DNA from: a virus
Direction: 5' to 3' (one strand)
DNA: 20,468 bases
IMG/VR virus record: IMGVR_UViG_3300048126_000040
Location: 1-20,468 of that record
Shown here one piece after another: positions 1 to 15,600 of this stretch (position 1 is the first letter of the stretch; every line of letters begins with the position of its first letter). The notes beneath the pieces are model-generated. The model did not search any database. It was given only the letters and a program-made list of their open reading frames with translations, and was not told the DNA's origin. The position numbers were made by a program, and so were the translations under genes.

Positions 1-3000
1 ATCTTGTAGAGCGCCAGTAATTTCATCGTCACCAAGTATTTTAGTTTCAAGATCATTAACTAAATTAGTGAACTTTTTATCTATCTCTACAAAAGCCTGA
101 CCTTTCTCGCCTTCTGGTAGGGTAATAGCATTTTGTATTTCTAAATACAATCCAGTAGGCTGTTTTCTTATGTCCGTTAAGTCTGGAACATGTGATTTTG
201 TTTCTTGGTCATATTTCGTGCCATATGTTGCAGGCTTACCTATTATGGTTTTGAACTCATCAACTTGGTCCTTCATTACTCCGTTAACAGCAATATCAAA
301 ACCGGGTATATCTTCGTATTTTTTAAATAGGTTATCTAGCGCATCCTGCCTGTCTTCGCCAACCTGTTCGTACACTTCCGCTATTTCTCTATACAATCCA
401 CTAGCGGGTCTGTAATTAGGGCTAGTAGGATTGAAGTGATTTTCGGGACTACCAATAGCTAATGCCTGATCGTCTAAACGCCCTGTAAATTCGGTGATGT
501 TATCGGCAACTTGTTCTTCTAAATCGTCGACTCTATAATCTAAAGTTTGAATATCACGGCCTTGTATTACAGCACTTTCCTGTAACTGCTGTATTTCGTA
601 AAGGGCGCCTTTACCCTCTTTCTTTACTACTCTAGAGTTACGCGTTTGTTTGTCTAGGTCTAATATATTCCCGTTTTCATCCGTGTTAAGCATAAAACCG
701 CGTGGGAAGTTTTTAGCGTATTCCTCATCCGGCTGATACTGTGCCTGCCACAGGAACGCGTTATAAGTATCTATCTCGCCGGGGTAATCGGTGACGGCTT
801 CAAAGTATCCGGGATATTTCTCATAGTTGTCATCCGTTATAAGGTTTATATACCCATCACCATCTTTGTCAATCGTTCTCCAAGGGAATGTCCCCACTAA
901 GTTATCGGGGATTTTCATGGGTCCATTATCACGAATATGGGCTTTTAAATCGTTTCTGCTTGTCTGGTAGTAGGTCTCCTCATTACCAAAAACGTTTTCT
1001 ATAATATCTATCTGACCTTCTATACTAACGCCCAACTGCTCTAAATCTTGTTTTAAGCCGTCTAAAGACTCGTTTATGTTTCCTATAGCACCCGAACCAC
1101 CAATAGCAGCGGCGAAATCATCAGATATTAAAAAGTCTTGGAGTGAGTCCCTTACAAGTGTTTTTGTTTCTTCTTCATCCATACTAGCGCTAGTTATGGC
1201 ATTTACAAGCCCAGTGCTATCTAAGAAACTATTCACTGCTTCACTTATAGCAAAATCTACATCTTCCGCTGTTTGAAATTCTGTGAAGTCAGGTAACGCA
1301 TCCAGTTCAGTTTGGAAATCTTCGGCGGTCACATAATCTTTGAGTGAAGCACTTATAGTACCAGCTACATCGTCTGCTGTTTGGAAATCACCAATAGCGG
1401 TATTAAAATCGTCGCTGTCTAAGAAATCTGCTAAACTACTAGCTATAAGAGTGTTTGCTTCGGTTTGGTCTAAACTATTTTCTTTGATTGTATCTACTAA
1501 GCGAGTGTCCTCTAGGAAGTTTGTTAGTGAAACACCTATAGCCCCTGTAATCTCTTCTTCGGTTGGGCCTACAGCATTTAAGAAATCGTCGCTTACTAAG
1601 AAATCCCCAAGTGCCCCAGATATTATGGTTGCTACTTCACTCGAATCAACCCCCACCATACTTTGGAAAAGGTCTCCCCTTACAAAATTACCAAACGCTT
1701 CATTTACTTCACCTACAGTCAACCCCGTATCAGGTAAAGCATCTTTAAACGCATCACTCTCTAGGAAGGTCTCTAGTGAAGTATCTACAACATCTTGCAC
1801 TCCATCTTCATCTAAACCTGCTTCGGGAATTTCCGGTAGTGCGTTTATAAATTCTTCCGTTGCCAAGAAGTCGGAAAAAACCTGTTGTACAGCATCTTGA
1901 TCTAACCCAGCTTCTGGTAAGTCTATAGTTTTTACATAGTCTATCAGTTGGGTTGCTATCGCAGTATTCACATCCTCTGATGTTACAGCATCAGGCAGTT
2001 CTAGGTCACTCGACTTAACGTAGTCTGTTAAAGAATCAGTTATAAGAGTCTTAACTGCATCTTCATCTTGCAAACCGGTTACATCAGGAATTATTGCTGT
2101 AAGTGCTTCGGACGTTGTGAAATTTGCTAATGATGTGGTAATTAGAGTAGAAACATCACTTACTGTTTGGAAATCAGAAGTGTCATCTGCAGTTATAAAA
2201 TCAGAAGTGTCATCTGCAGTTATAAAATCAGAAGTGCTAGGCAAAGCGTTTTTAAAATCTTCCGACTCTATAAAGGCTGTAAGTAACGCCGATACGTCAT
2301 CTGCATTGTCTACATCTACGAACGTACCATCTTCTTTTAGCTTGGTAACTATACTTTCGGTAAGAGTAGATATATTTTCATCCGCGGCAAACGCATTAGC
2401 AACTTCAGTCGCAATTAATCCTTCTGCACCTGCAAGGCCGTCGTACTTCACACTAAGGGCAGCTATTGCTTCGGTTGCAGTAACTCCTTGTTCTTTTAGC
2501 GTTGTGATGTCTGCTTTTATTGTTTCTGCTTCGCTGGCGTCCACGAGAGAATCTCCTACAAAAGTGTCTAATATGCCTGTTTGGTTGGGAGTATGTTCTA
2601 CCTCTTGGGTATTTACCTTATATTCATACTCTTCTAAAGCATTTCGTTCAAATATGTTAAGACCTCTTTTGTAAGTCTCAACGTCTTCATTAGTTAGGGA
2701 ACCATCTTCATCATAGTCAAATACTGACGCTTGGCCCCCTTGTTCAGCAATAGCGTACATCCGTTGTATTATGTCGTAATGATGCTGTGGTGTCGGTCTG
2801 TCTGAATATGTATCCTGTATATCATCAGGATTAGCTAACTGGTAAGCATCTGCAAGTTGCTGGTCAAAGTCTGCCTCATTAAAGTCATCCGTGTCACTAG
2901 GCAAGTTAATAGCGAAATTAATTGCATCTTTACTTGGGTTCTCTATACCCATCTTAACATACGACTCAATAGCTTCTGTAGTACTTATGTAGCTAGAGTC

Positions 3001-6000
3001 ATCTGTAGCATTTAGTAAGTCGTTACCGGCATTAAACCCAGCCATACCTAAATCGTTTGCTATGCTATTTACTGCTTCTACATCCCCACTGTTTATGGCT
3101 TCCTGCAACTCAGGATTTTGACTTATAGCTAAGTGTACTAGGGGGTTATTAGATTCGGCATTCGTAGTAAAGCCGCCCGCAGGACCGCTACCACTAGGCC
3201 CACCGGCTTGGTCAATTACCCCGTTAATAGCTAATATAGGTCCGGTAGTTCCAGCTGATGCTATCATTGACAACACAACATTTGAAGCCATCTCACCACC
3301 AAAATCTCTATCCGGGTCCATAGTTGCTAGAGAAGTTTCCTTAATATATGTGGACGCAGCGGCTTCAGCACCTTCCGCCCCAGTTTCTTTAAGAACTACA
3401 ACCCCGTTTTTAACAAGTAACCCACCTAGATCATCGGAAACATTTTTAGCGCCTCTTTCCGCTAACACATCTGTAGCTTCTCCCAGCGCACCTTTAAAAA
3501 TAGTCCCCTCTAACGCCTGACTACCCCCTGACAGTATGCCTACCATCATTGCAGCTGTAGCACCTACTTTTATAGACAGCCCCGCTGCATACTCCCCAGC
3601 ATAAGCCTCTAACTCTGCGCCACTTAATCCAAGTGCGTCTCTACCATAAGTCTCTGCAGTTGAGTAAGCGTCTTCATAAGTCTCCATGACCCCACCACCA
3701 GCAGCTTCCACCATATCTGTAGCCAAGCCTGTCTTTAGTGCCGCCTTAGAAGCCATCATGTTGGCCGCTTCCTCTGTAAGATCTTTTACCGCTGCAAGAC
3801 CCCCCGCTTTAACTGCAGCAAAAGTAACTCCGCCAAGAGCTAGTGGGATTAATTCACTTACGACCTCTACACCCACAAACTCTACTAAGAAAGTAGTCGG
3901 GTGAGCTACAAACTCGCCGAATATGGCTTTTGTAGTGCCCATAAACCCTTCAGCTTCATCTATGTTTTTCATCATTACTTTGAAGGTATCTTGGTGATCT
4001 TGAGACATGTACCCCATAGCCATACCTTGTATAGCATCTAGGTTTTTGGACATTTGATTTTCCATAGAGAAGTCTATGTTTTTAATGGCCGCATCATACA
4101 CTAAATCATAAGTTGCTTGAGCTTCCTCCTCACCAGCCCCCGCTAACAATAACGCATTCTTAGCCTGAACAGCATCTCTTCTGGCATTACCTATTTGTGC
4201 GTTAGTGGATATACTCATAGCAAAACTGTTAAACGCTCCGGCTACTTCAGTAACCCCACGAACTGCTACAGAGAGGGCAGCCGCTTCTTTACCCGAGGCA
4301 TTAGCATATTCTTCGTCGTAGGCTGCCTGAGCATCCTCATCATTACCACCGCTAAGTTTCACGTTGTCATAAGCACGTTGCGCCTGCTTCTTAACGCCAG
4401 CCTCTGCTTCGTGGTCAAGTATTCCTTTTATGGTCCTATAAACCCACGAAGTTTCACCTTCCTTTAGAGGCTCTTGCCCGTTTGCTTCGCGTACGTTGTT
4501 TTCTGCAATCCTAGCTTCTTCTGGCGGTAATACTCCCAACACCTGTAGGTATGCAGTTGGATCATACTTAGCTGTCTCTTGTAAAGTTAGCCCCGCAGGA
4601 CGCTCTGAAACGGTTAGTTGAGAGCCCCCCTCAACACCTTGATATTGCACTAGGGTAGTAGGTTGTATCCACTTTTTAGACCCGTCAGGTAGTGTTACAA
4701 GTCTTAACTGGTTAGTAGCTAGGGCATTAAGTACAGTGGCACGCTGCTCGGGATCGTCCTCAAAAAGACCTAACACATCAGATACTATATTAGTGTAGCC
4801 CTGTGTTGCTAATATATAGTTTACCTCTGGTATGCTAAGTAACGGCGAATCTTCCGGAGTAAATGCAGTGGATACAAGCGTGGCAGGGTCGTAATTGAAA
4901 TTTATGCTAGAATCTGGATCTTGAGCGGTTTGTAAAAACTTTAGTGTGGTGGCTGAACCCGCTGACTCTCCCTGAGCTTCTGCTTGCGCAAGTATACTAT
5001 TAAATACTGCGGCTCTTTGTCCGTCTGTTAACTTACTAACGTCTATACCCGACTGCTGTAACGCAAAGTCTGTTTGGTCCGACACTGCGGCATACAGCAA
5101 CGATTTATATTGAGTTTCGCTTACAGGAACTCCTTCAAATATACCAACACTTAAATAATGTTCGTGAGCATCTTCTACAGGTATACCATTGGCTGCTGCG
5201 TATTCTTCAGCCCCCCGCCAGTAGCCGTTTATATCTACTATCGAAGCATCTAATACGTTACCAAAGAAAGGATTTAACGCATCATCTCTAAGCTGTATTT
5301 CGGCGCTTAACTCGCCTGTTGCGGTGTTGTATATTGAATTTTGGACTTCATGCTGCCCTGCTAAGCGAAGAACATTACTGTTTATATCATCTAAAGCTAA
5401 TGTATCTAAAGTCGTTTGCACGCTATCTGCTTCTATAGCATCGTAATATGCTTGCTTATCTCCTTCAGAAGCGCCGGGAGCATTAGCGGCTATTCTTTTT
5501 GTTTCTATGTCTTGCTTCCTAGCTTCCTGTAGTCCCTGTATTTCAGTTATCTTAGCTATTTCAGCGTCAATTTCTTTATCTAGTTTATCCCTTTCAGCTG
5601 CCGCATTTTTCGCATCCTTGTATTTTGTTGTAGCTCTTTCCGTAGTCTCAGATACAGTCTGTTTAACCTCGTCCCAACCCATAGATACCGAGTTTTTAAG
5701 GTGAGTTACTACAGCATCACCTATAGTATTTAAGAAAGCACTTTCAATATTGCCTCCCTGCATAGCGGCATTTAGACTGCTGCGTAGTGCTACAGTAAAC
5801 AATTCGGGAGTTATCGTGTTTACTAGGTTGGAGTCTTTAAATGCTTCGTTTACTCTCTCAGCAACTACTAATTCCCTACTAATTATGCGGGCTTTATTCG
5901 CATCAGTAAGCTCCCCCGTCACAACCAAAGTGCCAAAAGACTCTTCTAGAATGTTTTTAAGGTCATTCGGCAGCTCATCTACCGCAATACCCATAAGGTT

Positions 6001-9000
6001 AGCTGTACCCTCCACCATCTCATCAATTCTTTCCAAGGTGCCTTCAGGAAGTTCATCTGCAAAAACTGTACCCATACCCACAAATTTAGACATTGCACCC
6101 TTTACAGAGTCAGATATAGGTTCTATAACGGAAGTGTCTATATTTTCACCTATAGTTCTTATTTCACCCTCTAACTTGTCAAACGCAACTTTCATCCCTT
6201 CTGTTGTGTCAAGCAAGAAATCTGTGCTTCCTTCCGGAAGCTGTTCTCTTACTAGATCTATTAGGGGTTGTATTGCTTCATCGTCTATCACCTTGCCAAC
6301 TTGAGATGCGGCTTCTTTTAAATCATTAATAGCTTCGCCAAAAAAGTTATTGAACTCTCCGCTTATATTATTTTCGTCAAAAAAGTTAGATACAACGTCC
6401 CCAGCCTTTTCTCCAACGAAACTTGCCGCTTCTTTATTTAGGGCATCCGTAAAACTGTCACCATCCGCAACGTCTACTACTATTTGAGAAACAGAATCCA
6501 TTACATAGTCTGGAACTGAACTAGTGTCTACTCCTAAATACTCAAACCCACTAGCGAGGTAGTCTGCACCAAAGCCACCCATTATGGCGCTTCCTATGTT
6601 TTCCCCAGAGCCAAGAGCATTTATAAGTGTTACAGTTTGGCGAGCAGTCAGGCCAAATAATCCTACCCCCGCGGCAGTAGCTACGGCAACTTGATTACCC
6701 ACAGCTAAAGCTGCATTCACAGCAACTGTTCCGGTTACGCCAAGTTTTTCAAGCCTACTGATTTCCTCAGCATAGGCAAGGTCTCCTGCTTTCTCCGCTT
6801 CTTCAGCACCGGCGGGCATTTTTAACTTACCATCAATTTGTAGTGCTGCTATTACAGCCTGAGCGTAGTCTTCTCCTTTTAATGTCCTACCGTCTCCCAA
6901 AAGACTATTAAGGCCTTTAAGGCCAACAAGGATCAAGGTAGCTATAGGACTAAACGAAGCGGCAATGTTTAGTATGGGGTTATCTAACCCTTTTTCAAGA
7001 GTACCAACACGTCTAGGCTGCGACACCCAAACCATAGAGTATGACCCAGTAGGAGCTTCACCGCCCGTAATGTCGATTAGAAACCCGTCACCCGCATTAC
7101 TCTTGCCCGGGTTGGCATACTCACTGTAATCCGGCATTTCACCATCAAAATAGTAAGTATGGTTTAGTACCCAATCCGCTCCTTGAATTTGATTATGGCC
7201 GTCCATCACGAACTCATCGCCAAACTGTGCGCCACCCTTCATATATAGCTTAGAAGAGTCATACCACAAGTCCATGTCTCCCATCATTTCATCTATGACT
7301 TCAGAGTCTGCTTCTACGTATAAGGGCATCTCTAATCGCTGAAGTTCTTTACCCCAATCCGCTAGTTGTTTATTAAACGACCATTCATGCCTAGGCATCA
7401 TATACTCAGCGTCGTGCGGTATACCTCCCGCCCAGTAAAGTTGTCCATTTGCAAAGTATGAATTATTAGTTGAACTGGATGAATACTCCATTCCGAACCG
7501 CCAAGTTTCGGTGGTATACTTCCATAAATCATCTGACTGTTCGTAGTTGATTCTGTTGCGCCAAGCATCTTGCGCTAATGTAAACTTGTTCTCCTCTGCT
7601 ATATTCCCTAGGGTAGTGCCTTCCCCAAAGTTATCTTGTTTATCGGGTAGCTCATAGAAATATTCTTCTACAGAATCTAGGGTGTACAATCTTGCTATAT
7701 CATCAACAGTTAAACTATCAGGGTCTTCCTGATATTTCCTAGCTGCAGTTGCCAACATGTGCATAGCACCGTACGCCGGCTCTACTTCATCCGCCCAAGC
7801 CGCCAGCTGATCAGCGGGGATGTCTTTTAACGAACCGTATTCCTGTATGTCAGCCGTGGTAAACGACTTTTTTAGCTGGTCAGTAACACCGGATGGGTTA
7901 AGTGCATGTTTTGGTACTTTCTCCCATGTGGATTCCCATTCTTCTGGTATACTTCTAAACTGTCTTTGTGCATGCTCCTCACCAAATAAAAGTGCTAAGC
8001 TGTAGTATCCCGCCGCCATTTCCTCAGCAGTAGGTATAGAATCAACGCCAACAACCCACTCCGCAGGTAGCGGTTCTTCTGGACGCCATGCAGGATTTTT
8101 AACCCCCGCCACCGTTATTGCTAAGTCAGGATCATTAGGCATACGAAGTTCAAACATATCGCGTAGCGTTATGTATTCTAGAGTCTCCGGGTCAATACCT
8201 AGTGTTATGTCTGTATCTTCTAGCTCTAAGCCCCCATACATTCCTCTTCTAGCGGTAGCCGTAGTATTTGAAGCCAACCAGCTCTCCGCGGCCCGTCTTC
8301 CTGTTCCGTTTGCGTAAGTCTTAGCCTCGTCCTCATATCCGTCAACAACTAAGCCCTCTTCCCATCGAGGGTCATACCATACTGTTTTTTCTAACTCACT
8401 TTCATACCCACCAGACATTATGGATTGGTAGCCGGCAATAAGTTCTTCAGTCGTTAAGGGTCTAGAATATCCTTGGTAGTGCACGGTGTAAGGGTTTGCA
8501 TTAGTAAACGCTAACTGGGGGGCGCCATCATTGGAAAACCCCGAAAGCTGATACCCTAATACAGCGCCACCTTCAACCTCGAAATTGTCATTGACTGTCA
8601 GCCCCGTATATATTTTTGCTAACCTATTATCAAGCTGTATACGTTCGTCGTAACTAAAATCTGACCCATCGGCTTTGACCTTTTCCGTTAGATCAGTACC
8701 CCGCATTCCTAGGGTATATCTCCGAAAGAGTAGCCCATCAGATAGGGCATCAAGTTCGCCATTGCCTACTAAGTCGAATAAATCGAAAAGTATAGGGTTT
8801 TTTTCTTTGTTAGTTACTTCATCGAGGTATTGTTCTATTTCTTCTGTACTACGAACGCCCTCCTTATCTGGTACTAGACCCTCGACTAAAGCATCTCCCC
8901 TTTGCTCTGATAGGTATCCGTAGAACAACTGGGCATCTTTTTCGTCTATAACACCATCACGGTTTATATCAAAAGGGCTATAAGCAGTTTTGTTATTATC

Positions 9001-9009
9001 TTCAGCCAT
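1..9009 (-). CDS. Giant virion protein with EF-hand/dockerin-like loops and repeats (3'-partial)
   Basis: A single open frame of 3003 codons starts at an ATG (9009-9007) and is still open at base 1. The start is preceded by AAGG at 7 nt. Visible parts are: a 12-residue calcium loop at residues 14-25 (D14, N16, D18, G19, I21, D22, D25); a second loop at 79-91 followed by ALSDGLLFRRY, a motif I associate with dockerin-like domains; hydrophobic Gly/Ala-rich stretches near 675-704, 753-790, 1717-1740, 1810-1830 and 1907-1933; a charged coiled coil near 1117-1183; an HY-x6-EG motif at 1284-1293; a third loop at 2098-2109; a repeat array at 2237-2636; and a fourth, degenerate loop at 2714-2725. It follows the nozzle and S74-fibre genes, where podoviruses place internal virion (ejection) proteins, so I infer an ejection or internal core role. 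A tape-measure or very large fibre role is possible. No transglycosylase motif was recognised. The frame is secure; the function is not. Confidence 0.85.
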   Translation of the reverse strand, partial: MAEDNNKTAYSPFDINRDGVIDEKDAQLFYGYLSEQRGDALVEGLVPDKEGVRSTEEIEQYLDEVTNKEKNPILFDLFDLVGNGELDALSDGLLFRRYTLGMRGTDLTEKVKADGSDFSYDERIQLDNRLAKIYTGLTVNDNFEVEGGAVLGYQLSGFSNDGAPQLAFTNANPYTVHYQGYSRPLTTEELIAGYQSIMSGGYESELEKTVWYDPRWEEGLVVDGYEDEAKTYANGTGRRAAESWLASNTTATARRGMYGGLELEDTDITLGIDPETLEYITLRDMFELRMPNDPDLAITVAGVKNPAWRPEEPLPAEWVVGVDSIPTAEEMAAGYYSLALLFGEEHAQRQFRSIPEEWESTWEKVPKHALNPSGVTDQLKKSFTTADIQEYGSLKDIPADQLAAWADEVEPAYGAMHMLATAARKYQEDPDSLTVDDIARLYTLDSVEEYFYELPDKQDNFGEGTTLGNIAEENKFTLAQDAWRNRINYEQSDDLWKYTTETWRFGMEYSSSSTNNSYFANGQLYWAGGIPHDAEYMMPRHEWSFNKQLADWGKELQRLEMPLYVEADSEVIDEMMGDMDLWYDSSKLYMKGGAQFGDEFVMDGHNQIQGADWVLNHTYYFDGEMPDYSEYANPGKSNAGDGFLIDITGGEAPTGSYSMVWVSQPRRVGTLEKGLDNPILNIAASFSPIATLILVGLKGLNSLLGDGRTLKGEDYAQAVIAALQIDGKLKMPAGAEEAEKAGDLAYAEEISRLEKLGVTGTVAVNAALAVGNQVAVATAAGVGLFGLTARQTVTLINALGSGENIGSAIMGGFGADYLASGFEYLGVDTSSVPDYVMDSVSQIVVDVADGDSFTDALNKEAASFVGEKAGDVVSNFFDENNISGEFNNFFGEAINDLKEAASQVGKVIDDEAIQPLIDLVREQLPEGSTDFLLDTTEGMKVAFDKLEGEIRTIGENIDTSVIEPISDSVKGAMSKFVGMGTVFADELPEGTLERIDEMVEGTANLMGIAVDELPNDLKNILEESFGTLVVTGELTDANKARIISRELVVAERVNEAFKDSNLVNTITPELFTVALRSSLNAAMQGGNIESAFLNTIGDAVVTHLKNSVSMGWDEVKQTVSETTERATTKYKDAKNAAAERDKLDKEIDAEIAKITEIQGLQEARKQDIETKRIAANAPGASEGDKQAYYDAIEADSVQTTLDTLALDDINSNVLRLAGQHEVQNSIYNTATGELSAEIQLRDDALNPFFGNVLDASIVDINGYWRGAEEYAAANGIPVEDAHEHYLSVGIFEGVPVSETQYKSLLYAAVSDQTDFALQQSGIDVSKLTDGQRAAVFNSILAQAEAQGESAGSATTLKFLQTAQDPDSSINFNYDPATLVSTAFTPEDSPLLSIPEVNYILATQGYTNIVSDVLGLFEDDPEQRATVLNALATNQLRLVTLPDGSKKWIQPTTLVQYQGVEGGSQLTVSERPAGLTLQETAKYDPTAYLQVLGVLPPEEARIAENNVREANGQEPLKEGETSWVYRTIKGILDHEAEAGVKKQAQRAYDNVKLSGGNDEDAQAAYDEEYANASGKEAAALSVAVRGVTEVAGAFNSFAMSISTNAQIGNARRDAVQAKNALLLAGAGEEEAQATYDLVYDAAIKNIDFSMENQMSKNLDAIQGMAMGYMSQDHQDTFKVMMKNIDEAEGFMGTTKAIFGEFVAHPTTFLVEFVGVEVVSELIPLALGGVTFAAVKAGGLAAVKDLTEEAANMMASKAALKTGLATDMVEAAGGGVMETYEDAYSTAETYGRDALGLSGAELEAYAGEYAAGLSIKVGATAAMMVGILSGGSQALEGTIFKGALGEATDVLAERGAKNVSDDLGGLLVKNGVVVLKETGAEGAEAAASTYIKETSLATMDPDRDFGGEMASNVVLSMIASAGTTGPILAINGVIDQAGGPSGSGPAGGFTTNAESNNPLVHLAISQNPELQEAINSGDVEAVNSIANDLGMAGFNAGNDLLNATDDSSYISTTEAIESYVKMGIENPSKDAINFAINLPSDTDDFNEADFDQQLADAYQLANPDDIQDTYSDRPTPQHHYDIIQRMYAIAEQGGQASVFDYDEDGSLTNEDVETYKRGLNIFERNALEEYEYKVNTQEVEHTPNQTGILDTFVGDSLVDASEAETIKADITTLKEQGVTATEAIAALSVKYDGLAGAEGLIATEVANAFAADENISTLTESIVTKLKEDGTFVDVDNADDVSALLTAFIESEDFKNALPSTSDFITADDTSDFITADDTSDFQTVSDVSTLITTSLANFTTSEALTAIIPDVTGLQDEDAVKTLITDSLTDYVKSSDLELPDAVTSEDVNTAIATQLIDYVKTIDLPEAGLDQDAVQQVFSDFLATEEFINALPEIPEAGLDEDGVQDVVDTSLETFLESDAFKDALPDTGLTVGEVNEAFGNFVRGDLFQSMVGVDSSEVATIISGALGDFLVSDDFLNAVGPTEEEITGAIGVSLTNFLEDTRLVDTIKENSLDQTEANTLIASSLADFLDSDDFNTAIGDFQTADDVAGTISASLKDYVTAEDFQTELDALPDFTEFQTAEDVDFAISEAVNSFLDSTGLVNAITSASMDEEETKTLVRDSLQDFLISDDFAAAIGGSGAIGNINESLDGLKQDLEQLGVSIEGQIDIIENVFGNEETYYQTSRNDLKAHIRDNGPMKIPDNLVGTFPWRTIDKDGDGYINLITDDNYEKYPGYFEAVTDYPGEIDTYNAFLWQAQYQPDEEYAKNFPRGFMLNTDENGNILDLDKQTRNSRVVKKEGKGALYEIQQLQESAVIQGRDIQTLDYRVDDLEEQVADNITEFTGRLDDQALAIGSPENHFNPTSPNYRPASGLYREIAEVYEQVGEDRQDALDNLFKKYEDIPGFDIAVNGVMKDQVDEFKTIIGKPATYGTKYDQETKSHVPDLTDIRKQPTGLYLEIQNAITLPEGEKGQAFVEIDKKFTNLVNDLETKILGDDEITGALQD
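1102..2301 (-). repeat. About 13 degenerate ~30-residue repeats inside the giant protein
   Basis: Residues 2237-2636 consist of about 13 end-to-end imperfect units, averaging 31 residues. The consensus is roughly acidic-x-V-x3-I-x2-SL-x-DFL-x-S-x-DF-x2-A(I/L). Clear units include those containing SLADFLDSDDFNTAI and SLQDFLISDDFAAAI. The units are diverged at DNA level apart from one local 27-base duplication. The pattern is amphipathic and acidic and would suit a helical rod or stalk. Confidence 0.75.
2172..2236 (-). repeat. Perfect 27-bp tandem repeat (2.4 copies)
   Basis: Two identical 27-base copies lie at 2172-2198 and 2199-2225, followed by an 11-base partial copy at 2226-2236. The period is nine codons, so the frame is kept; each copy encodes ITADDTSDF. 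It lies inside the degenerate repeat array of the giant protein and looks like a recent slippage or unequal-recombination product. Confidence 0.93.
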
Positions 9010-12804: not shown

Positions 12805-13152
12805 TTAGTATTTCCAAGCTACTGGGGTAGTCTCTCGCGTGTCTACGTGTACAAAACCTTTGGCAACACCAATACCATTAAACCCCATAATAGAAGCATT
12901 ACGTATAATAGACATACGCTGTGCACCACCAACTACCTTTATGTCAGCAGCTATGCCTTGACTATGAGTTCCCGGCTTGGCTTTTCTAGCTTCAATGCTA
13001 TGGTTAGGCGATCTATACCCACTAGTTATAATAAACGGAAACCCACACACCTCTCGCAGTGCATCAAGTTTCTGTAAGAAGTCAGGACACATCTCATTCT
13101 CACCAGTTTCCTGACAATTAAAATCTTCTACTTTAAAATACTTTAGGCTCAT
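12805..13152 (-). CDS. M15A zinc peptidase endolysin
   Basis: This 115-residue protein has the peptidase M15A fold signature (D-Ala-D-Ala carboxypeptidase or L-Ala-D-Glu endopeptidase type). It shows SGYRSPNH at 44-51, GTHSQGIAADI at 61-71 and FVHVD at 100-104. H63, D70 and H102 occupy the usual zinc-ligand positions. The length is that of a bare catalytic domain, with no cell-wall-binding domain and no signal peptide, so export would depend on the holin. Its ATG overlaps the stop of the upstream holin gene in an ATGA junction, indicating translational coupling. It most likely cleaves peptidoglycan peptide stems at lysis; the exact bond cannot be read from sequence. Confidence 0.9.
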   Translation of the reverse strand: MSLKYFKVEDFNCQETGENEMCPDFLQKLDALREVCGFPFIITSGYRSPNHSIEARKAKPGTHSQGIAADIKVVGGAQRMSIIRNASIMGFNGIGVAKGFVHVDTRETTPVAWKY

Positions 13153-13520
13153 TTTTTTAGACTCATTAGTTTAGATACACCTTTAATACCAAAGCTAGAA
13201 CTTATTGCAATAAACAATAAATATTGGTACCACTCAGGCAAACCAGATAACGCTACAAAACCTTGCTCTACACGATCTATAACAGTTAAATCATTTACCA
13301 CTATAGCATACCCTACCATAAACACGGGTAGCGCTAATACAACCGTCCAAAATTCGTCTTTCCAGCTATGGGCAGAAGCATCAGCCATCTTAGCTTCCCA
13401 TTCACCGTCATTCTCAATTACTTTGATTTTAGCCTTGTGTTTGGCTTGCTTCTCTTCGGCTTTGTTTTTTAGATACCCACCAGCTATATTAGCTATAGGG
13501 CCTATTAGGTGTTGTAACAT
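13149..13520 (-). CDS. Holin, 3TM/GTA-holin family
   Basis: This 123-residue protein has an N-terminal hydrophobic helix (LIGPIANIAGGYL), a charged Lys/Glu linker (18-46), the motif HSWKDEFWTVVLALP at 51-65, and two membrane segments at about 57-75 and 96-115. The SWKDEFW motif just before the first strong TM segment is typical of the family Pfam calls holin of 3TMs. The start is an ATG with GAGG five bases upstream. It overlaps the endolysin start by four bases. The role is to open the inner membrane and time lysis. A pinholin or membrane-docking function instead of large-hole formation cannot be excluded. Confidence 0.83.
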   Translation of the reverse strand: MLQHLIGPIANIAGGYLKNKAEEKQAKHKAKIKVIENDGEWEAKMADASAHSWKDEFWTVVLALPVFMVGYAIVVNDLTVIDRVEQGFVALSGLPEWYQYLLFIAISSSFGIKGVSKLMSLKK

Positions 13521-13527
13521 ATATACC

Positions 13528-14019
13528 TCACTTTAATGGGTTGTATAATTCGTCCATACCGTCCCATAAATCTTGTATTTCACGTTTTAAGACCTTTATC
13601 TCACCTTCAAAGCCTTCTACGTCTTTAACAACTAACTCTGCTTTTTTAACAATAGTTTGCATTTCTGTTACTGACTTTTCTACATCAGTAACTTGTTTCT
13701 GTATTAGTAACAAACCAGCTTGTTGGTCTTTAATAACTACTAAGTTAGTACCTAATTCCGCTAGTTTACCCTGTAATTTAGATACATCGTTAGCAGTAAG
13801 TTCTTGCTCAATAAGTAATATTTTCTCTTCTAACGGCACTATATCAGGTACTTGTATAGCTTCAACCGCTTCTAGACGGGAGTATAGGCTACTAGCAGTC
13901 CATACACCACCACCAATAGTAGAACCAATAGCTAATACTACAGCAATCCAAGCGCCTTTAAACGTCTGACCACCGATCTTTAGTTCGCTATCCTCAATAC
14001 TCACTGCAGTCTTCTCCAT
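13528..14019 (-). CDS. Membrane-anchored coiled-coil protein, possible i-spanin
   Basis: This 163-residue protein has a short charged N-terminus (1-21), one TM segment (about 23-42, containing AVVLAIGSTIGGGVW), and a long heptad-rich coiled coil (about 45-160) ending DELYNPLK. N-in topology with a periplasmic coiled coil is the layout of inner-membrane spanins such as lambda Rz, and the gene sits directly upstream of holin and endolysin. There is no obvious partner: neither neighbouring secreted protein carries a lipobox, so the spanin label is an inference. I recall similar TM plus coiled-coil proteins ending in NPL from marine phages, without assigned function. Its ATG overlaps the upstream gene by 26 bases. 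Confidence 0.8.
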   Translation of the reverse strand: MEKTAVSIEDSELKIGGQTFKGAWIAVVLAIGSTIGGGVWTASSLYSRLEAVEAIQVPDIVPLEEKILLIEQELTANDVSKLQGKLAELGTNLVVIKDQQAGLLLIQKQVTDVEKSVTEMQTIVKKAELVVKDVEGFEGEIKVLKREIQDLWDGMDELYNPLK

Positions 14020-14833
14020 ACATGAAGCAACTATAACCTTGTGCTGTAGGGCCTGTTAAGTAGTATTCAGCCTCACTACCTGTAGCTAATACATCCGCTT
14101 CTGATACGTATAAGTCTAAACCAAAGTTTGAACCATTTAGTAACACAGCAGTAGCATTGTTGGTGTTTGCCCAACTCATTGAAACCCATTGATTGTTAAC
14201 TGAATAAGACACAGTAGCTTGCTCTGCAGTAGTATTGTTGTTCTCAGCACCCTGCTCTAAGAAATCTACCGCCTCTTGGTTTTCGGCAACGGCAATGAAT
14301 GCACTTGCATTATTGGCATGCGTCTCAATGTCATCTATAGACTGATTATATTCGGTAACTTCTTCTTGTGTGATAGTTAGAACTTCTTGATTAGCTGCTA
14401 CAAACTCTTGTACTTCCGCTTCTTCATCCGGCGTAGCTGCAGTTTCAGCCATCTCCGCTACTTCTACAACCTGCACCATCTCAACAACTACTTCAGTAAA
14501 CGTATCAATAGCGCTATCCATAAGCTCTAATTCTTGAGTGGCACGCTCGTTAAGTACATCTTGTACAGAACCATAAGGTAAGTATGTACTCATACCTGAC
14601 AAAGCCATGTTATAGGCTTGAAGCTGCTCAGAAGTTATGTGAGCACTACCTGAAAGAGTACCATCAGACATACTATGCCCGTGATAAGAGTATTCTTGCG
14701 CTGCACCTACTAACTTAATTCCTCTATCAATTTGATCTACAATAGCAGATGAGGTATCAATTAAGTTGTCTAACTCACTGGAGTGAGCTACGGAACCTAG
14801 CACTAATAGAGGTAATATCATCATCTTCTTCAT
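13994..14833 (-). CDS. Secreted helical protein of unknown function
   Basis: I chose the ATG at 14833 (279 residues). The longer frame would begin at a TTG at 14851 that lies on the Shine-Dalgarno itself and adds MERALT before an otherwise perfect signal peptide. From the ATG the protein begins MKKMMILPLLVLGSVAHS-SE, a classical Sec signal with no lipobox cysteine. A helical, acidic, Val/Glu/Ala-rich region follows, including LMDSAIDTFTEVVVEM and a run of VQVVEVAEMAE. A beta-looking C-terminal part with NNQWVSMSWANTN ends in two cysteines (SCFMYGEDCSEY). I recall relatives in uncultivated marine phages but know no function. It is probably periplasmic or outer-membrane-directed, and its position in the lysis cluster suggests an envelope role. 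Confidence 0.8.
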   Translation of the reverse strand: MKKMMILPLLVLGSVAHSSELDNLIDTSSAIVDQIDRGIKLVGAAQEYSYHGHSMSDGTLSGSAHITSEQLQAYNMALSGMSTYLPYGSVQDVLNERATQELELMDSAIDTFTEVVVEMVQVVEVAEMAETAATPDEEAEVQEFVAANQEVLTITQEEVTEYNQSIDDIETHANNASAFIAVAENQEAVDFLEQGAENNNTTAEQATVSYSVNNQWVSMSWANTNNATAVLLNGSNFGLDLYVSEADVLATGSEAEYYLTGPTAQGYSCFMYGEDCSEY

Positions 14834-15413
14834 AGTCAACGCTCTCTCCAATCTTTAAAATTTTATTATACCAATCTTTGGTGTTTTTAGTGTAGTCAGG
14901 AATGTAAGTTTCTGGATTTTGTTTCATTACCAAAAAAGCCCTTTTACCAACTATAAGTTTACCATTAGACAATATAGGACAGGGAGTTCCCGATATAAAC
15001 ATACTTTTCCATACATCAACTGACTGACACATCCTAGCTACAGCAGCTACTTTCATACCTAAATCTGATAATAATTTACTATCTCTGCGGCGATCACAAT
15101 TAGGATCAACTTCATAAGAACCACTAGATAGCCCAACACCTACCGTCTGTAACGACCCGCCCGACCCTTTTAAACACGTATCCATGCCATTAGACATGTA
15201 ACTAGGACTTATGGCGCTGCCTACAGGCATTTCACTACTAGATCCCGCACCATTATATGTATTAGATACTGAATCATCCTGAGTAGTATTATTGCTAGAC
15301 ACCGTACTACCTTCACCATTATAGGTGTTTAAACTACCATCCTGCGCATTATCAGCAAGGGCACTAACCGCGAACAACCACAAAAAGCTGAACTTAAATA
15401 AATTTTTGACCAA
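14775..15413 (-). CDS. Secreted four-cysteine protein of unknown function, TTG start
   Basis: This 212-residue protein starts at a TTG at 15413, immediately after an in-frame TAA, with GGGG 10 bases upstream; no upstream ATG is possible. It opens with a strong signal peptide, MVKNLFKFSFLWLFAVSALA, with likely cleavage near residue 20. The next 40 residues are Asn/Ser/Thr/Gly-rich and contain two NTYNGxGS repeats. A conserved-looking domain follows with AISPSYM at 68-73 and four cysteines (C80, C106, C129, C145), an even number suited to disulfides in the periplasm. The tail is acidic (YEEDDD). I recall this AISPS/cysteine domain from marine phage genomes, where the Asn/Thr tract is often longer; no function is known to me. 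The 3' end overlaps the next gene by 59 bases. Confidence 0.8.
   Translation of the reverse strand: MVKNLFKFSFLWLFAVSALADNAQDGSLNTYNGEGSTVSSNNTTQDDSVSNTYNGAGSSSEMPVGSAISPSYMSNGMDTCLKGSGGSLQTVGVGLSSGSYEVDPNCDRRRDSKLLSDLGMKVAAVARMCQSVDVWKSMFISGTPCPILSNGKLIVGKRAFLVMKQNPETYIPDYTKNTKDWYNKILKIGESVDYEEDDDITSISARFRSSLQ
14844..14849 (-). promoter_or_regulatory. Shine-Dalgarno deciding the start at 14833
   Basis: On the minus strand this reads GGAGAG, 10 bases before the ATG at 14833. It overlaps the TTG at 14851, so that codon is unlikely to be the start. The site lies inside the coding region of the upstream secreted protein. Confidence 0.6.
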
Positions 15414-15600
15414 TTATATCTAGCCCCAAAATTAGTGGATATAGAAGCCATAATAAGCGTTCTATATTTTTAAACTTGTGCATACCCTGATCTAAACGCT
15501 TATCAACTGTATTTAGCTGGTACTGTATGTGTTCCATACGTAACGCGCATTCTTTCTCGTGAGATTCTATTTTGTATAGGGCTTCTTTAGTATCTTCCAT
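15394..15600 (-). CDS. Small tail-anchored membrane protein, XhlA-like
   Basis: This 68-residue protein has a charged helical N-terminus (KIESHEKECALRMEHIQYQL, residues 10-29, then KRLDQGMHKFKNIER) followed by one C-terminal TM segment (about 49-63, LLWLLYPLILGLDII). That is the layout of XhlA-type haemolysin/holin accessory proteins: an amphipathic helix and then a membrane anchor. It is the first gene after the fibre gene and opens the lysis and envelope group. Assignment by topology only; it could equally be an accessory holin or a virion-associated membrane peptide. The start is an ATG, and its end overlaps the next gene by 20 bases. Confidence 0.75.
   Translation of the reverse strand: MEDTKEALYKIESHEKECALRMEHIQYQLNTVDKRLDQGMHKFKNIERLLWLLYPLILGLDIIGQKFI

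Follow-up and report, generated by a model that had tools for sequence, protein, structure and literature searches.

Genes A, B and C of the virus contig IMGVR_UViG_3300048126_000040 (20,468 bases; hereafter the window, the whole stretch of DNA analysed) constitute one fixed three-gene unit, rather than a pair, and the unit is also carried by phages of SAR11 and Roseobacter. With a probability of about 0.36, we read the trio as a trans-envelope module that acts on the outer envelope at lysis, either spanin-like or as an accessory. A 2018 survey reported that 91 of 677 phage genomes have no spanin and asked whether another route across the outer membrane exists (PMC6139136). The A-B-C trio is a concrete candidate for such spanin-less passage in SAR11 and Roseobacter phages. 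What had been a pair of hypothetical proteins is now a defined module: its gene order is conserved, its predicted membrane anchor ends in a near-invariant tail, its middle protein is exchangeable and one natural variant carries a lipoprotein. It is of more interest than an ordinary hypothetical pair because it is fixed and widely shared and bears on the spanin-less breach of the outer membrane raised in that survey.

Gene organization in the window

The trio is part of a minus-strand run that proceeds from a gene for a 68-aa protein through A (14775-15413), B (13994-14833) and C (13528-14019) to a holin-like gene (13149-13520), an M15 endolysin gene (12805-13152), a virion-protein gene and a tail-fibre gene. 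From 15600 through the endolysin the genes overlap or are in near contact, with A and B sharing 59 nt, and no terminator-like site was found between 12500 and 17100. The endolysin is assigned by family (Peptidase_M15_3, phrog_894); the 123-aa holin-like protein matches phrog_2524, a family with no assigned function, and is termed holin-like from its position and hydrophobicity only. With that proviso, the order proposed in the sequence-only reading, two exported proteins upstream of coiled-coil, holin and endolysin genes, is correct. The same reading described the two as consecutive Sec-signal proteins without lipoboxes, one with an Asn/Ser/Thr-rich N-terminus and four cysteines and the other helical with a C-terminal cysteine pair; the coordinates, a signal-peptide rule and a lipobox scan bear this out, and the two proteins are A and B, respectively.

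Co-occurrence of A, B and C

Relatives were retrieved from IMG/VR with a B query (58 loci) and with A queries, for which the best 80 of 141, the best 80 of at least 596 and the best 80 of 547 loci were kept. As 58 loci encode a relative of B and 141 a relative of A, neither gene is a chance frame. Merging of identical 3′-ends reduced 278 loci with A to 226. The A queries gave 130 distinct window-like loci, 112 of which have a complete gene after A; this gene is B in 112/112, and a C-profile match is present within six genes in 112/112. Addition of the B-fetched loci raised the totals to 147 distinct and 129 complete loci, with B present in all 129 and the C tail in 126, the contig ending in the other three. 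Of the pelagiphage-type loci, in which small genes often intervene between A and B, 56 have a complete gene after A; the C tail is present in 37 of these and the contig ends in 19. The tail also follows A in 10 of the 11 annotated phage records with A, the exception being HTVC115P, in which a C-like gene ends in ...NPLSNMK, one residue too long for the search pattern. Invariable co-occurrence of the trio and independent distribution of its members had been named as the outcomes for and against a joint system; the first was observed throughout the examined set and, for the second, A showed no distribution independent of that of B.

Distribution among phages

A tblastn search detected A in 11 of 50,697 annotated phage records, namely six Pelagibacter phages (HTVC115P, HTVC023P, HTVC033P, HTVC202P, Baldr and Mosig), Roseobacter phages CRP-207 and CRP-810, the fosmid genome MedDCM-S28-C10 and two Manatee Spring assemblies. 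Window-type B was detected by tblastn only in CRP-810, to which phmmer added CRP-207 and the assembly ct7L0027. The module crosses phage families, as MedDCM-S28-C10 is placed in the Autographiviridae and Mosig in the Kyanoviridae. It is also optional, since A is not present in four related T7-like pelagiphages or in CRP-114, which have other small membrane proteins where MedDCM-S28-C10 has the trio. Eight loci were present in the bacterial genome contigs scanned, in MAGs labelled Porticoccaceae, Neomarinimicrobiota and others, and these may be binned phage contigs. Homologues suspected in cyanophages were not found in a profile search of P-SSM2, Syn9, Syn5 and P-SSP7, and no cyanophage was among the matches listed when the phage collection was searched by tblastn with pelagiphage and MAG members. 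Several cyanophages are listed as spanin-less in the available part of the 2018 survey (PMC6139136). Phages HTVC022P and HTVC027P, the subjects of PMC12753301, are not among the A matches, and the trio genes are not mentioned in the available portion of that paper; the words 'spanin' and 'holin' do not occur in the available portions of PMC9038755 and PMC11288001. Judged by titles and abstract openings, supplements aside, no description of the A-B-C trio was recognized among the literature matches listed.

Multi-gene envelope modules do pass from one marine phage family to another, as exemplified by the pelagiphage T8SS/curli module (PMC9599517), which the trio resembles as an exported multi-gene set common to marine phage families. 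The trio could similarly be a late auxiliary module for envelope remodelling unrelated to lysis. The T8SS/curli module carries CsgG, CsgF, CsgA/B, FecR and kinase genes (PMC9599517), whereas the trio matches none of them; Pfam searches for CsgG, CsgF and the curli repeat gave nothing for A, B and C of the window or for the pelagiphage members searched. Nor did A, B or C match any family of metabolic, secretion or curli proteins above the cut-off, and we regard remodelling of this kind as very unlikely.

Properties of the A and B proteins

The A protein (212 aa, TTG start) has a Sec-like signal, an Asn/Ser/Thr-rich stretch at residues ~27-60 and four conserved cysteines (Cys80, Cys106, Cys129 and Cys145), and matches PHROG 20531 (E 9e-12). 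Signal-like N-termini were scored with a home-made rule, not SignalP, and are present in 42 of 45 A homologues; 2 of the 45 have a lipobox-like tetrapeptide. In an AlphaFold2 model (mean pLDDT 71.3), the Asn/Ser/Thr-rich stretch is disordered and the C-terminal half folded, with a beta hairpin between Cys80 and Cys106. A pore-forming role for this hairpin was dropped, as alternation typical of membrane strands exceeded that of shuffled sequences (p<=0.05) in only 1 of 45 homologues. 

The longest frame of B begins at a TTG at 14851; the assigned ATG start gives a 279-aa protein with a Sec-like signal, rich in Glu and Asp, with its C-terminal cysteine pair at Cys269 and Cys276. All 45 B homologues have a signal-like N-terminus by the same rule and none has a lipobox-like tetrapeptide. 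The AlphaFold2 model (mean pLDDT 88.6) has long helices to residue 198 followed by short strands. Comparison with PDB folds revealed nothing convincing for A (best Foldseek E 0.72; best Z 2.6) or for B (best Foldseek E 0.29; Z 7.7 over part of a helical bundle), although a missing fold match does not by itself show a new fold. The best matches of the A and B profiles to PDB sequences had E values of 0.97 and 0.057, the latter to an aspartate receptor. A BFVD search with B identified three similar phage proteins (E 8e-11 to 8e-7), all with no assigned function.

The protein in the B position in pelagiphages is longer, Glu-rich and exported, and no relation to window-type B was detected beyond the signal region (probability 26%). 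In contrast, the C proteins of the two types are related (probability 96%, P 3e-9). With A and C related across the types and the two B proteins unrelated, the outer genes have been kept and the middle gene exchanged.

Properties of the C protein

The C protein (163 aa) has one N-terminal hydrophobic segment, a coiled-coil-like body and a conserved C-terminal W...NPL tail. A hydrophobic 18-mer is present within the first 70 residues of all 34 C homologues inspected; the coiled coil was recognized by eye and from weak matches to coiled-coil families. For 14 pelagiphage C proteins, the mean charge is +0.9 before and -0.7 after the segment, which fits an N-inside orientation, whereas for window-type C (-0.5 before, -1.4 after) charge does not settle the orientation. 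A tail of the form ...[NSD]P[LM] ends 193 of 194 complete C matches, the remaining one ending in ...NPIR, compared with 34 of 3287 other ORFs. The C homologues of CRP-207 (L125:3292-3873) and CRP-810 (L126:7387-7809) are annotated as lysozymes, probably a misannotation, as they look like membrane proteins of the coiled-coil type. A further family of membrane coiled-coil-like proteins, which end in an NGNG-type tail (L290:4974-5339, matching phrog_20984; L288:4237-4602; L299:8368-8826), recurs near pelagiphage holin-like and TerL genes and sometimes lies between A and B.

The trio of the window sits amid tail genes, the depositors of two pelagiphage B proteins annotated them as carbohydrate-binding, and C-type proteins weakly match tape-measure models through their coiled coils (E 0.0015 for CRP-207; E 0.0075, far below the cut-off, for HTVC115P), so that A, B and C might be virion or adsorption proteins, exported or surface parts that end on the particle or bind shed receptors. 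The signal-like N-termini of almost all A and all B homologues argue against this. Homology to structural proteins had been named in the sequence-only reading as evidence against an envelope role, and no structural family match, those to tape-measure models included, was convincing; Pfam assigned no family to the HTVC033P B protein. A virion role is, in our judgement, improbable.

A lipoprotein-carrying variant

In roseophage-type loci, a small lipoprotein gene lies upstream of A and overlaps the longest frame of A. Among the 21 loci L185-L205 it is missing only from L198, where the contig begins at A, so that 20 have it, as do the three phage records CRP-207, CRP-810 and ct7L0027 (L125, L126 and L133). 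The lipobox pattern was found in 21 of 23 of these lipoproteins, in some of which it fell on a later cysteine, and the remaining two (LCSC, LLGC) were assigned by eye. With hhalign, the mature lipoprotein aligns over 39 columns to the C-terminal domain of A, which has the pattern C.R..NA..L..IG...AA..L.C.D (probability 96%, P 2e-9), and two of three lipoproteins weakly match PHROG 20531 (E 0.004 and 0.007), a family that is itself without an assigned function. This shared domain hints more strongly than any other observation at an outer-membrane site of action for the A domain. The roseophage type thus has a feature of two-component spanins, a lipoprotein with a lipobox beside the trio, putatively sorted to the outer membrane. 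No lipobox ORF was detected in the window, which may be a fragment, so that one could be encoded elsewhere.

Lysis genes near the trio

The position of lytic or holin-like genes relative to the trio was taken from homologues of ten query proteins, several of them called holins only by position. Such a gene is nearby in 6 of the 11 phage records (CRP-207, HTVC023P, HTVC033P, Mosig, ctXG6705 and MedDCM-S28-C10), compared with 578 of 2746 random positions (21%) in the same records. The recognized genes are far from the trio in CRP-810, HTVC115P, Baldr and HTVC202P, and none was recognized in ct7L0027. Within -4/+5.5 kb, a lytic or holin-like gene is present in 32 of 58 loci of the window-like type and 15 of 18 of the pelagiphage type, in 4 of 7 from phage records and in 0 of 4 from MAGs; these 87 loci exclude those with short flanks and retain duplicates, and the count has no background of its own. 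The trio of MedDCM-S28-C10 has a holin-like gene on one side and TerL on the other, a position that 18.5/18.7 (Rz/Rz1) occupy in T7. The link between the trio and lysis genes is real, though not universal.

Spanins and lipobox ORFs in trio carriers

The Rz family phrog_1327 was not detected in any of 38 trio records, with T7 scoring as a control, nor was the Rz1 family phrog_4306 in any of 20. PF03245 gave no match above cut-off in 20 records and one sub-threshold match, in HTVC033P, within a 463-aa frame. Of 23 trio records, two, each from a MAG, matched the Rz-like spanin family phrog_812. An overlapping phrog_739/phrog_812 pair (L299:7595-8378) lies ~1.3 kb upstream of A on the 118-kb L299 contig of a MAG labelled Porticoccaceae. 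On the 335-kb L293 contig of a MAG labelled Neomarinimicrobiota, possibly a large phage that was placed in a bacterial bin, the pair is ~60 kb from the A gene of a trio-like A-B-C set. Matches to phrog_739 were used only jointly with phrog_812, as the former model also picks up long frames of coiled-coil type and scores in 9 of 14 control genomes. Neither the phrog_4306 nor the PF03245 model detects the spanins beside L299, and absence of spanins judged by family is accordingly weak. The A, B and C proteins themselves matched no spanin family in PHROGs or Pfam; T7 18.5 and 18.7 scored as controls.

A scan for lipobox ORFs found none in HTVC202P or Baldr, one each in HTVC115P, HTVC033P, ctXG6705, S28-C10, G001 and G010, two each in HTVC023P, G008 and G009, three in Mosig and G007, four in ct7L0027, five each in CRP-207, CRP-810 and G021 and six in G020. 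In HTVC023P and S28-C10 the ORFs overlap genes already annotated and look like chance frames. Mosig has at least three lipoprotein-like ORFs (including L324:12539-12742 and L326:2883-4686, minus strand) that look like real lipoproteins, and one of 67 aa could be an o-spanin. A Pro-rich lipobox ORF is present in CRP-207 and the roseophage-type contigs G020 and G021 (L300:9664-9873, L349:14444-14653 and L354:11691-11876), the G020 and G021 copies having 37-39% identity to that of CRP-207. It lies within a larger gene that is read in a different frame of that strand, with the G020 copy partly beyond the gene; we lean towards a chance frame, but it could be an embedded o-spanin. Some trio carriers thus look spanin-less and others may possess both systems.

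The trio might instead act as a periplasmic sensor or block that delays lysis or excludes a second phage, functions with analogues in T4 RI/T and in outer-membrane exclusion proteins. The exported proteins often adjoin a holin-like gene, the trio occurs together with recognized spanins on two MAG contigs, and the exchange of B between related A and C proteins is as would be expected of a part that faces a changing partner. PADLOC, which is not an exclusion-protein library, gave only weak matches of the coiled-coil type (E 0.02 and 0.03), and the trio has no sign of a promoter of its own, with 12 promoter-like sites compared with 12.0 expected. We regard such a sensor or block as possible but unlikely.

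A possible role at lysis

What is observed is the gene order and co-occurrence, N-termini that resemble signals, a hydrophobic segment in C and a lipoprotein homologous to a domain of A; from these we infer a topology, contacts between the proteins, a time of action and a disruption of the outer envelope. In this scheme, A, B and C would be late phage proteins of one co-inherited, exported, envelope-spanning module. C would be the anchor in the inner membrane, with its coiled-coil-like body and NPL tail reaching into the periplasm, B a helical periplasmic protein, and A would be located at the outer membrane or close to it, where, in roseophage-type loci, the lipoprotein would add a second, lipid-anchored copy of A's C-terminal domain. 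After the action of holin and endolysin, the three would open or detach the outer layers, replacing or accompanying a spanin pair.

Action on the outer envelope at lysis is favoured by the anatomy of the trio, by the roseophage lipoprotein and by the frequency of lytic or holin-like neighbours relative to random positions. It is weakened by the spanins co-carried on two MAG contigs, by lytic genes that are elsewhere or unrecognized in 5 of the 11 records, by the possible o-spanin lipoproteins of Mosig and some roseophage types, by the lack of a lipoprotein in the window and by failure of the pore hairpin. The sequence-only reading had proposed an outer-envelope lysis or exclusion system; gene position and the roseophage lipoprotein favour this, co-carried spanins and known lytic genes located elsewhere weaken it, and the proposal is kept here in conditional form.

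Two-component spanins (lambda Rz/Rz1, T7 18.5/18.7, PHROG 739/812) resemble the trio in lying near holin and endolysin genes, as it does in about half of its records, and in having an N-terminally anchored, coiled-coil-like membrane protein (in the trio, the putative anchor C), overlapping genes and, in the roseophage type, a small lipoprotein. The trio differs in its two extra soluble exported proteins, in the window type having no lipoprotein, in its lack of sequence relation to the spanin families tested and in the co-occurrence of recognized spanins on two MAG contigs. We do not class it as a spanin, because the window type does not have the lipoprotein and no spanin family gave a match, but it may work like one. 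A unimolecular spanin combines an N-terminal lipobox and a C-terminal TM segment in one protein, and no such protein is present among A, B and C of the window. Disruptins are small cationic peptides, unlike A and B with their 212 and 279 aa and the Glu/Asp-rich composition of B. A bolder reading, which we consider doubtful, is that the trio is an undescribed modular apparatus for breakage of the outer envelope, unlike spanins and disruptins, that has been transferred as a block among marine phage families, several of them spanin-less as far as spanins are recognized. The same doubt applies to the spread that this would entail, across phages of SAR11, Roseobacter and other marine bacteria, with the lipoprotein in some lineages.

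Neighbouring open reading frames

The 68-aa protein encoded at 15394-15600 (minus strand), the gene of which overlaps A, has a C-terminal hydrophobic segment and a HEKECALRM motif. It is present in only 51 of 135 loci and is therefore outside the core of the trio. By eye, an HEK.CA.RM motif is common to this protein and to 80-aa proteins of T7-like pelagiphages. At one end of the window (1-9009, minus strand), an exceptionally long frame (at least 3003 aa) runs off the contig end and encodes acidic repeats and, by eye, an EF-hand-like N-terminus.
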